NCBI RefSeq assembly: GCF_013283665.1
Contig: NZ_JABEKU010000001.1
Location: 1,426,001-1,490,000, forward strand
Direction of reading: 5' to 3'
DNA length: 64,000 nt
Source: Ensifer sesbaniae
GTDB taxonomy: Bacteria; Pseudomonadota; Alphaproteobacteria; Rhizobiales; Rhizobiaceae
Part shown: positions 11,655 to 17,339 of the stretch, in pieces
Layout: each line of letters opens with the position of its first letter
How positions within the stretch are numbered: the stretch's first letter is position 1
Made by a program: the position numbers and the translations under genes
Notes under the pieces: model-generated
The model's input: the letters and a program-made list of their open reading frames with translations, nothing else
Told to the model about the DNA's origin: nothing
The model's database searches: none

Positions 11655-11751
11655 CTTGGCAAAGTTTATACTTGACGCCTTTAGTCACCAATTATATTCG
11701 GCGCTGCTAAATCGGGCATCGAAGCCCGCGGACAAACAGCGACGGTCAAGG

Positions 11752-14352
11752 ATGTCCCTCTCGTTCATTGCGGATCTGGCGAAATGGGGTGACCGTGCGG
11801 CGCTGGTCTTTTCCGGGCAACGGATCGTCACCTATCGGGAACTCGGCGAACGCGTCGCCCGCCAGGCGCTCGCCTTCGGCGGTTCACGCGGACTGGTGGT
11901 GATCGAGGCCGAGCTTTCCGAACATGCGATCATCGCTTACCTGGCGGCGCTGAGTGCGGGACATGCCGTGGCCCTGCAGGCTCCGAAGACCGGGGTGGCC
12001 CAATCCTGGGTCGATGCCTTCGAGCCCGATTACGGCTTTCGCCGCATCGATGGCCGCTGGCGCACGGAGTATCTGCGGCAAGATGGCAAGGCGCCGCATC
12101 CCGAGTTGGCGGTGATGCTCTCCACCTCCGGCACCACCGGTTGCGGCAAGGCCGTCCGCTTGTCCGGGGAAAACATCACGGCAAATGCCGCCTCCATTGC
12201 AGAATATCTCGGCCTGACGGCGGATGATCGCGGCTGCCTCATCCTGCCGCTTCACTACTCCTACGGTCTGTCGGTTCTGAACTCCCACCTGGCGGTTGGA
12301 GCAAGCCTCTATATTCCCGGTGGATCGGTCCTCGATGCCGGCTTTCTCGATGGTCTCGCCGCAAGCGGCAGCACAAACTTTGCAGGCGTGCCCTATTCCT
12401 ACGAGTTGCTGGAGAAGGTGGGTTTCCGCGAACGGCGGTTCCCGCATTTGCGCTTCATGACCGTTGCCGGCGGTCGGTTGAGCCCGGAGATCATCCGTCT
12501 CTATGACGACCACCTTCGTGCCCAAGGCGCGTCCTTCTTTGCGATGTACGGCCAGACGGAGGCCACCGCGCGCATAGCCTTTGTGCCGCCGGCGGCACTT
12601 GCCGGCAACGAGGAGAGGATCGGCATAGCCATCCCCGGCGGGCACCTCTCGATCGAGAACGAGAACGGAGCGCCGATCGAAGGCGACGGTGTCGCCGGCG
12701 AACTCGTCTATCGCGGCCCGAACGTGATGATGGGCTACGCCACATCGCGCAAAGATCTCTGCCGTGGCGCCGAGCTTACCGAACTGCGCACCGGTGACCT
12801 CGCGATGCGCCATGCCGACGGCCTGTTCCAGATCGTCGGCCGCATGAAGCGGATTTCCAAGATTGCCGGCCTCAGGATCGCCCACGATGGGCTGGAAGCG
12901 GCGCTCGAAAGGCGTGGCATCGTGGCAGCCGTCGTCGGTGACGATGCCGGCCTTCATGCTTTCTACGCCGGCAGTCGTGATGCCGAGGAGATCAGACGGT
13001 TCCTCGCGCAAGCGAGCGGGCTGACGCTCGCGCATCTCAAGGCCACGCAGCTTGCCGAAATGCCGCGGCTTTCCAGCGGCAAGGTCGACTATAACGCACT
13101 CAAAATGACGGCCCGCCAGGCGGCAGCGACCGTCGACGACGACAACGGCGGCATCGAAGAGCTTTTTGCGCAGGTCTTCTATCCGAAGAGGGTGAAGCGC
13201 TCCGACAGTTTTGTGTCGCTGGGCGGCGATTCCTTGCGTTTCGTTCAGCTCTCGATCGGTCTGGAAAAGGCGCTGGGGCAAGTTCCCGACGCCTGGGAGA
13301 CCTTGTCGATCGCCGAATTGTCGGCGCAGGAGCGCCGTGAGACCGCCACGCGACGGATCGGGATGGACCTGCTGATCCGCGCACTGGCGATTCTGCTCGT
13401 CGTCCTGCACCACGAGTTGCTTTGGCCCATCCCCGGCGGATCGGCAGCCATGGTCGTCCTCGCAGGCTTCAGCCTCGCCCGCTTCCAGATGGGGCCACTT
13501 CTGGCCGGAGATGGCCCGGCCATCCTGCGCCCGCTCGCCCAGGTGCTGGTGCCTTACTATCTGATCGTCGCTGCCTATGCGGTCACCTGGGGCGAGGTGC
13601 CCTGGGCCTCGGTCTTCCTCGTCGGCAATTTCGGTGTGGCCCTGCCGGAGGAACACGGCATGGTGCCGTATCTCTACTGGTTCATCGAAGCCTATTGCCA
13701 GATGATGCTCGTCTTTGTCGGGCTCTTCGCGATCCCGCAGTTCCGGCGCTTTGTCTCTGCAAGGCCCTTCGGTGCCGGCATGGCCCTGCTGTTTGCCGCT
13801 CTTGTCGCCAGGTTGACCCTGCCGCTCCTGTGGCCGATCGGCAATCGCCAGATCTTCACCCTGCCATGGATTTTCTATCTCGCCGTCATCGGCTGGTGCG
13901 CCGCGGTCGCCGAAACCGGCAAGCAGCGCCTGCTGCTGATGTTGTCCGGCGCCGGGGCGTTCCTGTTCTTCGGCCTATACGAGGGGGTCTGGATCGGGAC
14001 GAAGATCAAATACCTGCTGCAAATCGCCGTCCTGGCAGCGCTGCTTTATCTTACGCGCGTCAGCGTGCCGCGCTGGGCGGCGCAACTCGTCCTGCCTCTG
14101 TCGGCGGCGGGCTTCCACATCTACATCCTGCACCGCTTCGTTCCCGAGCTGCTGATGCTGCCGCTGCAACCGGCGTTGCCGCCGGTGGCGTTTTCGATCC
14201 TGTCGATCGTTGGCGGCATCGCGCTCGGCCTGGCCGCGTGGCTCGGCCAGCGTCAGCTTCTAAAGAAGCTTGCTGAGTGGCGGGAGCGCGAGCTCCGGCC
14301 GCTGCGATCGCTCGGCTTTGGGGCGCTGCGCTTTCCGCTACGCCCACTGTGA
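11752..14352 (+). CDS. Fusion: AMP-dependent ligase, acyl/peptidyl carrier domain, membrane acyltransferase
   Basis: 866-aa protein with three parts. Residues about 1-450 are an ANL-superfamily ligase: P-loop STSGTTGCGK (124-133), YGQTEA (266-271), TGD (347-349) and the A10 lysine in LSSGKVDY (Lys444). Residues about 465-530 are a carrier domain with LGGDSL, where Ser494 would bear phosphopantetheine. Residues about 535-860 are a polytopic acyltransferase-3-like domain with about ten hydrophobic segments. It starts DLLIRALAILLVVLHHELLW, where the HH matches the family's N-terminal histidine. A plausible route is that the ligase loads an acyl or amino-acyl group on its own carrier and the membrane domain transfers it to an envelope acceptor. 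Substrate and acceptor are unknown. The start is uncertain because the ribosome-binding site is weak; an upstream TTG-started frame from 11656 exists. Confidence 0.85.
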   Translation: MSLSFIADLAKWGDRAALVFSGQRIVTYRELGERVARQALAFGGSRGLVVIEAELSEHAIIAYLAALSAGHAVALQAPKTGVAQSWVDAFEPDYGFRRIDGRWRTEYLRQDGKAPHPELAVMLSTSGTTGCGKAVRLSGENITANAASIAEYLGLTADDRGCLILPLHYSYGLSVLNSHLAVGASLYIPGGSVLDAGFLDGLAASGSTNFAGVPYSYELLEKVGFRERRFPHLRFMTVAGGRLSPEIIRLYDDHLRAQGASFFAMYGQTEATARIAFVPPAALAGNEERIGIAIPGGHLSIENENGAPIEGDGVAGELVYRGPNVMMGYATSRKDLCRGAELTELRTGDLAMRHADGLFQIVGRMKRISKIAGLRIAHDGLEAALERRGIVAAVVGDDAGLHAFYAGSRDAEEIRRFLAQASGLTLAHLKATQLAEMPRLSSGKVDYNALKMTARQAAATVDDDNGGIEELFAQVFYPKRVKRSDSFVSLGGDSLRFVQLSIGLEKALGQVPDAWETLSIAELSAQERRETATRRIGMDLLIRALAILLVVLHHELLWPIPGGSAAMVVLAGFSLARFQMGPLLAGDGPAILRPLAQVLVPYYLIVAAYAVTWGEVPWASVFLVGNFGVALPEEHGMVPYLYWFIEAYCQMMLVFVGLFAIPQFRRFVSARPFGAGMALLFAALVARLTLPLLWPIGNRQIFTLPWIFYLAVIGWCAAVAETGKQRLLLMLSGAGAFLFFGLYEGVWIGTKIKYLLQIAVLAALLYLTRVSVPRWAAQLVLPLSAAGFHIYILHRFVPELLMLPLQPALPPVAFSILSIVGGIALGLAAWLGQRQLLKKLAEWRERELRPLRSLGFGALRFPLRPL

Positions 14353-16245: not shown

Positions 16246-16274
16246 AACCGGAGCGGAAACGCTCCGGTTTTTTC
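16246..16274 (+). terminator. Rho-independent terminator after ndk
   Basis: AACCGGAGCG and its exact complement enclose a GAAA tetraloop and are followed by TTTTTC. It overlaps the stop codon of the convergent lipoprotein gene. Confidence 0.9.
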
Positions 16275-16782
16275 ATATGGGGCATTTCGCGGTCTCGAAA
16301 TGTTCGGGAGTCTTGCCGTCGCGGAAGACTTCCGGATTCTTGTCGTAGGCGGGGCCCTCGACCAGTGCCTTGGCCGGCAGGATATCCTGGTCGATATCCG
16401 AGATGACTGTGGTCTCCAGTTTCTGCAGCGTTTCGCCGTCAGGTCCCTTCACTTCGATCGTCACCGCATAGGGTCTTTCCTTTTTCACGCAGGTCAAATC
16501 AGGACTTTCCAGCACCACCCTGTCGAGCTTTGGAAAGAGCTTGCGCGTCAGCGTGAACGGCTTGCCGCCCACCGGGTTCTCGAAGGTGGCGACGACGACG
16601 CTGCCCTCGGGCACGGGCTCTGTCTTCTGAAGCGTGATCGTGTAGACCGCGTAGGCAAGGCGGTAATTGAAGACGAACATCTTGCCCGTCAGCTTCAGCG
16701 GATCCGGTCCGGTCTCGCGCTGACAGCCGGTGGTGGCGAGTGTGATGGCAAGTGCTGCCAAGATCCCGATCATCCTTGTCAT
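16273..16782 (-). CDS. Small lipoprotein of unknown function
   Basis: 169-aa protein. A lipoprotein signal peptide leads to the lipobox TTGC with Cys20 as the acylated residue. The mature part is a beta-rich domain (TFENPVGG, TRKLFPKLDRVVLESPDL) with two further cysteines, in DLTCVKKE and at the C-terminal CPI, which may form a disulfide. I do not recognise a family. The start ATG at 16782 overlaps the stop of the upstream CGNR regulator gene (ATGA), so the two are almost certainly co-translated. Confidence 0.78.
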   Translation of the reverse strand: MTRMIGILAALAITLATTGCQRETGPDPLKLTGKMFVFNYRLAYAVYTITLQKTEPVPEGSVVVATFENPVGGKPFTLTRKLFPKLDRVVLESPDLTCVKKERPYAVTIEVKGPDGETLQKLETTVISDIDQDILPAKALVEGPAYDKNPEVFRDGKTPEHFETAKCPI

Positions 16783-17339
16783 GGGCCTGCTTCTTCCCTG
16801 TTGCGATGGTAGTGGCGCTTGGCCTTGTTGCGATTGCCGCAGACCGCCATGTCGCACCAGGTCCGGCTGCGGTTGCGGCTGCGGTCGAGAAACAGCCAGC
16901 CGCAATTCGGGCAGATCTTCAGCCGGTCGGGCTCGGGGTTGGCGGCAAGGCTGAGTGCCGAATGCGCGGTCGCGGTGTCGAGCGGAAGCGCGCCGCCGTG
17001 CGGCACGGGACCGCGCAGAACCACCGCGATCGCCTCGAGCAAGTCGGCCAGGAACTCCGGCCGGCCATTTTTCGATATCTCCGCGCGGAAGTGCCTGTCG
17101 GTCGCTTCGCGCAGCCGCAGAAGGCCCGCGCGCCGTTCAGCCGCCACGGGCAGCAGCGGACCAAAGCGGGTGTTCTCCGCCCCGAAACGGTTGGCAGCTT
17201 CCGCAAAGGTATCGATCGCTGCAACGTCGGCGAAACGGTCGATCCGGCGCTCGGGATCGAAGCGCAGGACGATGGAATTGGCCACGTCCAGCGCCAAGGC
17301 GCCGCCGGCAAAACGATGGGCTGTCCAGGTGAAGGTCAT
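16779..17339 (-). CDS. CGNR zinc-finger (ABATE-domain) transcriptional regulator
   Basis: 186-aa protein of the ABATE/CGNR family. An alpha-helical ligand-type domain (about residues 10-130) precedes a C-terminal zinc finger with Cys143 and Cys146 (CPNC) and Cys162 and Cys167 (WCDMAVCGNR); the CGNR box is at 167-170. Family members are regarded as stress-related transcription regulators, mostly from computational work. It is divergent from a LivH-type permease gene, and the 67-bp gap holds a 28-bp near-perfect palindrome that is a natural candidate for its operator. The downstream lipoprotein gene overlaps it by four bases. Confidence 0.88.
   Translation of the reverse strand: MTFTWTAHRFAGGALALDVANSIVLRFDPERRIDRFADVAAIDTFAEAANRFGAENTRFGPLLPVAAERRAGLLRLREATDRHFRAEISKNGRPEFLADLLEAIAVVLRGPVPHGGALPLDTATAHSALSLAANPEPDRLKICPNCGWLFLDRSRNRSRTWCDMAVCGNRNKAKRHYHRNREEAGP

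Follow-up and report, generated by a model that had tools for sequence, protein, structure and literature searches.

The question raised here is which process is served by a protein in which an acid-activating ligase, a carrier domain and a membrane acyltransferase are joined in one chain. Such a fusion is encoded at positions 11752 to 14352 of a 64,000-nucleotide stretch of Ensifer sesbaniae DNA (contig NZ_JABEKU010000001.1, positions 1,426,001 to 1,490,000; termed the window). Comparison of the gene with its homologues makes it likely that the fusion is involved in iron acquisition, because it connects two phyla and two unrelated iron repressors with one type of importer. The protein is probably an iron-starvation-induced membrane enzyme that activates and transfers an acyl group, and works with a ferric ATP-binding cassette (ABC) importer of the Fbp/Sfu type. 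Importers of this type are widespread among bacteria and go under the name siderophore-independent; the fusion bears on their access to insoluble Fe(III) in soil, a question that would become testable through a conserved acyl-activating enzyme that lies under iron operators and is tied to importers in two phyla.

Domain architecture and conservation

The gene and its parts are located as follows.
11752..14352, plus strand: adenylation (A)-carrier-acyltransferase-3 (AT3) fusion gene, ATG start, single open frame, 866 amino acids (open reading frame and domain calls)
11752..13101, plus strand: adenylation (AMP-ligase) domain, residues 1-450 (PF00501, E 2e-41; Foldseek; code table)
13147..13326, plus strand: carrier (PCP/ACP) domain, residues ~466-525, with LGGDSL and Ser494 at 13231-13233 (PF00550)
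13348..14286, plus strand: AT3-like membrane domain, residues ~533-845 (PF01757, weak in the window protein, above the cut-off in homologue L070)
13378-13380 and 13411-13413, plus strand: Arg543 and His554, the R-X10-H of the AT3 domain (conservation in homologues)

A sequence-only reading of the window had proposed the same three-part fusion, and the open reading frame, Pfam and the scores of homologues agree with it. The carrier of the window protein scores 20.5 bits with PF00550 as against a cut-off of 20.8, while PF01757 scores 19.6 bits (E 5e-4) in the whole protein and 23.3 bits (E 4e-5) when the C-terminal part is scanned alone, as against a cut-off of 31. Judged by homology, both are real domains although sub-threshold, since both, like PF00501, pass the cut-offs in the Mycolicibacterium homologue L070, where PF00550 reaches 38.3 bits, and PF01757 28.5 bits over the entire chain and 32.4 bits once the C-terminal part is scanned by itself; PF00550 is above the cut-off in homologue L104 as well. 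Neither a condensation nor a thioesterase domain is matched by Pfam in the window protein, which rules out a standard nonribosomal peptide synthetase (NRPS), as that reading had also held.

Structure prediction, proposed earlier as a check, gave AlphaFold models with a mean predicted local distance difference test score of 89 for the whole protein (modelled from 75 homologues) and 92 for the membrane part alone. The nearest solved structures of the front half in Foldseek are stand-alone acyl or aminoacyl ligases, i.e. HitB, oxalyl-CoA ligases, PltF, CytC1 and MatB, with HitB, oxalyl-CoA ligase and PltF as the best matches of the A domain. The membrane half has no match among solved PDB structures with an E-value below 0.28, and matches one 637-residue viral model with a probability of 1.00 and a TM score of 0.55.

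Residue conservation was counted over 102 homologues (101 in the pocket and code table). The P-loop TSG-(S/T)-(T/S)-G is nearly invariant, with Lys or Arg at position 133, and both Lys444 of the A10 motif and Ser494 of the carrier (GGDSL) are 100% conserved; in the window protein all catalytic residues are intact. Arg543 (98%) and His554 (99%) form R-X10-H in the first membrane helix. Of the AT3 'histidine pair' noted earlier at residues 553 and 554, His554 is the conserved histidine of this signature, whereas residue 553 does not belong to it. A wider search for the architecture and its neighbours, likewise suggested by the sequence-only reading, yielded about 100 homologues from Alphaproteobacteria to Actinomycetes that keep the catalytic residues, and a ferric importer that recurs beside the fusion.

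The fusion is present in 16 of 16 genomes searched in the host genus, the window's own included; of 297 genomes sampled across the host's order, 10 have it. As a full fusion it is also found in Rhizobium, Mesorhizobium, Phyllobacterium, Leisingera, Rhodobacter and Marinobacterium, and among actinobacteria, many of them from soil, in Streptomyces, Mycolicibacterium, Rhodococcus, Nocardioides, Lentzea, Arthrobacter and further genera. The order A-carrier-AT3 is maintained from 90% down to 32% identity with one exception, in Photobacterium sanctipauli (L075, 10001-12658), where the fusion partner of the A-carrier unit is, in place of AT3, a GDSL/SGNH hydrolase-like domain with a membrane anchor.

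Association with a ferric-iron importer

Unbiased clustering of all open reading frames across 93 loci revealed FbpA (binding protein) and FbpB (permease) of a ferric ABC importer beside the fusion in 16 genera each, and no other specific recurrent partner. In actinomycete loci the adjoining importer is of the SfuABC/FbpABC type and often forms one operon with the fusion. It lies upstream in one operon in mycobacteria, Lentzea and Propionibacteriales, divergent in Streptomyces, Phytohabitans and R. giardinii, downstream in Rhodococcus and some Nocardioides, and convergent in Agromyces; in Mycolicibacterium crocinum the importer ATPase gene and the fusion share a four-base overlap. As the gene orders vary, the association appears to have arisen repeatedly. 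The neighbouring FbpA is SfuA/YfuA-like (E 2e-135), and its NAQHE, TEN and YHYY motifs align with those of solved ferric-binding proteins, which identifies it, at the level of sequence, as a true SfuA/YfuA ferric-binding protein.

The binding protein is present in 12 of 12 actinomycete genomes tested, including eight in which it is not adjacent. Among 346 actinomycete genomes, 52 have both fusion and importer, 4 the fusion only, 38 the importer only and 252 neither. The importer is thus present in 52 of 56 carriers of the fusion as compared to 38 of 290 non-carriers (Fisher p 3e-32, odds ratio 86, the p-value being inflated by relatedness of the genomes). The two lie at most 8 kb apart in 43 of the 52 genomes having both, and the fusion is present in 37 of 43 actinomycete genomes with the close SfuA clade.

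Dedicated chelator enzymes and a receptor or exporter, as in a canonical siderophore cluster, were also sought around the fusion; no other biosynthetic gene recurs, and the importer alone does. MFS transporters near five loci were rejected as partners, as they belong to several unrelated subfamilies, only two of the transporters being EntS-like.

Iron operators upstream of the fusion

The operator predicted in the window is located as follows.
11673..11687, plus strand: RirA-type operator (iron-responsive operator, IRO box) TGACGCCTTTAGTCA, of the form TGA-N9-TCA, at -79 to -65 relative to the start codon

The RirA operator consensus is 5'-TGA-N9-TCA-3' (PMC6386902, PMC8822346). The predicted box lies within a conserved block, ACTTGACGCCTTTAGTCACCAATTAT (11670-11695), seen as a footprint in orthologues of the genus, and TGACGCCTTTAGTCA is the sole exact match of the extended RirA motif in the window. 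It is kept throughout the host genus and also in R. etli-type orthologues, where the flanking sequence has diverged. Among 20 representative Hyphomicrobiales upstream regions, which are not fully independent, 13 have TGA-N9-TCA within 150 bp, as compared to a rate of 4.9% in 150-bp segments drawn at random from these loci. The TTGAC half of TGACGCCTTTAGTCA resembles a -35 box; the GTCA half falls in the spacer, and it is this half that makes the element a predicted operator. The host itself has an Rrf2-family regulator of the RirA type, with RirA-like cysteines, whose gene is divergent from an fbpA. Elsewhere in the host genome, one near-match of the motif (L129/L138; L138 1684-4059, C2 at ~1749 kb) is flanked by a methyltransferase gene and by a tandem pair of siderophore-type periplasmic binding proteins, which it precedes.

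In actinomycetes, sites with at least 14 of 19 matches to the IdeR/DtxR consensus were scored. An IdeR/DtxR-like box is present in about 40 of 49 loci, nearly always directly upstream of the fusion or of the first gene of its operon, as compared to 4 sites per 622 kb in a shuffled-sequence control. Such boxes are also present where no importer is adjacent, in Arthrobacter, Pseudarthrobacter, Pedococcus, Phycicoccus, Cryobacterium and Lolliginicoccus. Fur and Irr boxes gave no convincing match in Leisingera, Marinobacterium and other non-rhizobial loci. With RirA boxes before the window gene and most rhizobial orthologues, and IdeR/DtxR boxes in actinomycetes, two unrelated iron regulators therefore appear to converge on the same fusion. 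From the operators we infer iron regulation, and from the importer pairing a joint function.

Adenylation pocket and predicted substrate

The pocket of the A domain is made up as follows.
S170, Y171, S174, S216, T237, A239, M265, A273 and R274, with K444 of A10: pocket residues (code table)
12571..12573, plus strand: Arg274, at GrsA position 331 and equated with VinN Arg331 in the alignment to 3wvn, present in 101 of 101 homologues

In GrsA numbering the pocket code is (S/C)-Y-S-(S/T)-T-A-M-A-R-K, almost invariant across two phyla. Asp235, the amino-group aspartate, is never present, residue 170 being Ser or Cys in 101 of 101 homologues. The fusion thus shares with NRPS adenylation domains (ANL superfamily) the PF00501 fold, P-loop and A10 lysine, but is without the Asp235 of α-amino-acid activators. 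Small or aliphatic residues at position 235 go with hydroxy or keto acids (PMC11253843), and VinN Arg331 contacts the α-carboxylate of 3-methylaspartate during β-carboxylate activation (PMC7756342, PMC12186527). As compared to VinN-type β-carboxyl-activating domains, the fusion has the same Arg at GrsA position 331, an aromatic residue at 236 and Met at 322, but Ser or Cys in place of Asp235, and is joined to a carrier and a membrane domain.

Because Asp235 is absent and Arg at 331 is kept, the substrate may be a dicarboxylic acid that bears no amino group but perhaps a hydroxyl, such as malate; this prediction is a tentative one, the pocket reading being weak evidence for substrate. The one-residue-shorter β13-β14 loop of VinN is moreover not shared, the alignment with 3wvn showing one extra residue, which speaks against it. 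The free α-hydroxycarboxylate left after β-activation would be a classical Fe(III) ligand. Activation of D-Ala, as by DltA, is ruled out, since Asp235 is never present. An aryl-acid (DhbE-like) domain is a less likely option: the (S/C)-Y-S triplet resembles the 2,3-dihydroxybenzoate code, which is N-Y-S at 235-236-239, but the invariant Arg331 is not expected for aryl acids.

The pocket is also of note in other loci. The actinomycete-type Cys170 is found in a rhizobial lineage with a divergent FbpABC (L101, Pararhizobium sp. A13; L026, Rhizobium giardinii). A stand-alone ligase of Rhizobium leguminosarum pRLb2 (L108, 7228-15106) has a pocket nearly the same as that of the fusion, SYSTTAMPRK; it is adjoined by a carrier, PglD-like acetyltransferase/hexapeptide proteins, a split transketolase and LuxE/LuxC-like genes, and the locus borders on genes for a TonB siderophore receptor and an iron-siderophore ABC transporter. 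A related ligase on a Parabacteroides distasonis plasmid (L107, 8671-16293) has the pocket TMSSTGTARK, with Arg retained, and lies in a polysaccharide locus with two carriers, two short-chain dehydrogenases/reductases and a ketoacyl-ACP synthase III.

Membrane domain and proposed mechanism

The RXXR motif proposed to contact a CoA phosphate in AT3 proteins is found within 20 residues before P601 in 52 of 101 homologues, at no fixed position, and is absent in the window protein. Pantetheine bound to a carrier is without the 3'-phosphate. The partial loss of the phosphate-contacting site would fit donation by the fused carrier; it is suggestive, and was rejected as proof, because Arg543, modelled to contact the same CoA phosphate, remains.

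The earlier proposal that one polypeptide activates a group, holds it and transfers it within the membrane fits all findings and is kept as the putative mechanism, to which a role in iron, beyond the view of that reading, is now added. When iron is scarce, RirA in rhizobia or IdeR/DtxR in actinomycetes would leave the promoter. The A domain would then activate a small carboxylic acid with a second carboxylate and no α-amino group, a malate-like hydroxy-dicarboxylate being the first guess, and the acyl group would be loaded onto the phosphopantetheine of the fused carrier. AT3 would take the acyl-pantetheine from the carrier, rather than acyl-CoA, and pass the acyl group on to an acceptor on the outer side of the cytoplasmic membrane. 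Activation, loading and transfer are deduced from established knowledge of the families together with the conserved residues, and a putative movement of the acyl group from carrier to outer acceptor follows from the domain functions. The product might be a small iron ligand of carboxylate type, either diffusible or held at the membrane, through which Fe(III) would stay accessible to the Fbp/Sfu binding protein; a surface group that handles iron for the importer is the other form it might take.

It is possible, rather than probable, that one A-carrier-AT3 protein alone makes and presents an iron ligand outside the cytoplasmic membrane for the Fbp/Sfu importer, as a previously undescribed and widespread system. 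If so, the 'siderophore-independent' uptake of Sfu type would depend partly on a dedicated ligand.

Evidence against an iron role and alternative explanations

Several observations weigh against the coupling of fusion and importer. Four of the 56 carrier genomes are without the importer at the threshold used, and the genomes, being related, are not independent observations. Neither the window nor most alphaproteobacterial loci have an importer gene next to the fusion, and the FbpA of the host is just 29% identical to the actinomycete FbpA. Near the fusion loci there is no siderophore receptor and just two EntS-like exporters, and the genes behind most RirA near-matches in the host genome are not known iron genes. 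In favour of an iron role, the Mycobacterium smegmatis SfuABC homologue msmeg_3633-3636 is needed for low-iron growth when both siderophores are missing; against it, msmeg_3635 and 3636 alone were significant in that screen (PMC6684656). If the M. smegmatis operon (msmeg_3630-3636) has the fusion at its end, like the operons of related mycobacteria, the missing hit would fit a dispensable role, or rescue by neighbouring cells in the pooled library.

A rather unlikely alternative is that the fusion is a low-iron-induced envelope modifier, comparable to Dlt and the O-acyltransferases, that acylates a glycan, lipid or peptidoglycan and alters surface charge or iron retention, without a free chelator. 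Known AT3 proteins mostly acylate extracytoplasmic glycans (PMC9558356, PMC9833829), and the stand-alone relatives of the A domain in Parabacteroides (L107) and R. leguminosarum (L108) lie in glycan-type acyl-sugar loci. The GDSL/SGNH domain that takes the place of AT3 on the Photobacterium A-carrier unit is likewise a fold that partners AT3 in surface acylation. However, no glycan, lipopolysaccharide or peptidoglycan gene recurs beside the fusion, the iron importer being its sole recurrent partner, and the fusion is common to Gram-negatives and mycolic-acid actinomycetes, whose envelopes differ greatly.

It is quite improbable that the AT3 acceptor is a soluble small molecule of the cytoplasm and another protein exports the product, so that the fusion would be a minimal siderophore synthetase without a trans-membrane acyl shuttle. 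MdmB and Asm19 acylate antibiotics with acyl-CoA in vitro (cited in PMC9833829), and EntS-like exporters lie near two loci, but exporters are no recurrent neighbour. An ordinary secondary-metabolism NRPS-like enzyme, with importer and operators coincidental, is scarcely credible: A-carrier proteins are common and Pfam alone says no more, yet the strength of the co-occurrence, the adjacency of the importer in 16 genera and the presence of a different iron operator in each of the two phyla are all at odds with it. The preferred reading remains a membrane acyltransferring enzyme that works with the ferric importer.

Comparison with known systems

The importers of Serratia (SfuABC) and M. smegmatis (msmeg_3633-3636) represent the kind of importer that is the genomic partner of the fusion, and likewise have an SfuA-like ferric-binding protein. 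Siderophore-independent uptake by the M. smegmatis importer has been shown (PMC6684656), and in the available text these systems are described as transporters only, with no acyl-activating membrane enzyme as a part.

The fusion resembles the AT3 proteins OafB, OatA and VanT in its multi-helix membrane domain, in the R-X10-H of the first membrane helix and in the PF01757 match of its homologues. Unlike them, it carries an A domain and a carrier N-terminally on the same chain, does not conserve the canonical RXXR of helix 3 (cytoplasmic face) at one place, and presumably uses an acyl-carrier rather than acyl-CoA as donor. It would be the first AT3 acyltransferase known to us that receives its acyl group from a carrier on its own chain, and as such a useful model of acyl-group movement across a membrane by AT3 proteins. 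D-alanylation by DltA, DltC and DltB likewise places A domain, carrier and membrane acyltransferase in series; in contrast, the fusion is a single polypeptide, has AT3 instead of MBOAT and no DltD, and by the missing amino-group Asp would not use a substrate of D-Ala type.

A description of the A-carrier-AT3 architecture or of its link to the importer was not found in the open literature (subscription papers were not covered), nor was any RirA- or IdeR-regulated AMP-ligase. The AT3 fusions named in the available text of PMC9558356 and PMC9833829 are with SGNH and alanine-racemase domains, with no mention there of a fusion to an AMP-ligase and carrier; an already assigned product, which would have contradicted the sequence-only reading, does not appear in that text.

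Genomic neighbourhood in the window

The gene order in the window (lptFG, pepA, holC, ABC-F, fusion, DinB, GST, ndk, moaE, pgsA, uvrC) is identical in S. meliloti Ak57, which marks the window as part of a Sinorhizobium/Ensifer-type genome, and the neighbours are thus host synteny rather than a cluster. For this reason, and as they do not recur in other lineages, the GGDEF protein, DinB, GST, ndk, lptFG, pgsA and uvrC were rejected as partners. A coding-like open reading frame at 16273-16905 (minus strand), without a Pfam match, occupies the same place as a hypothetical protein in S. meliloti Ak57. In Rhodococcus fascians D188, a 37% identical homologue of the fusion (hit H60) is carried on the linear plasmid NZ_CP015237.
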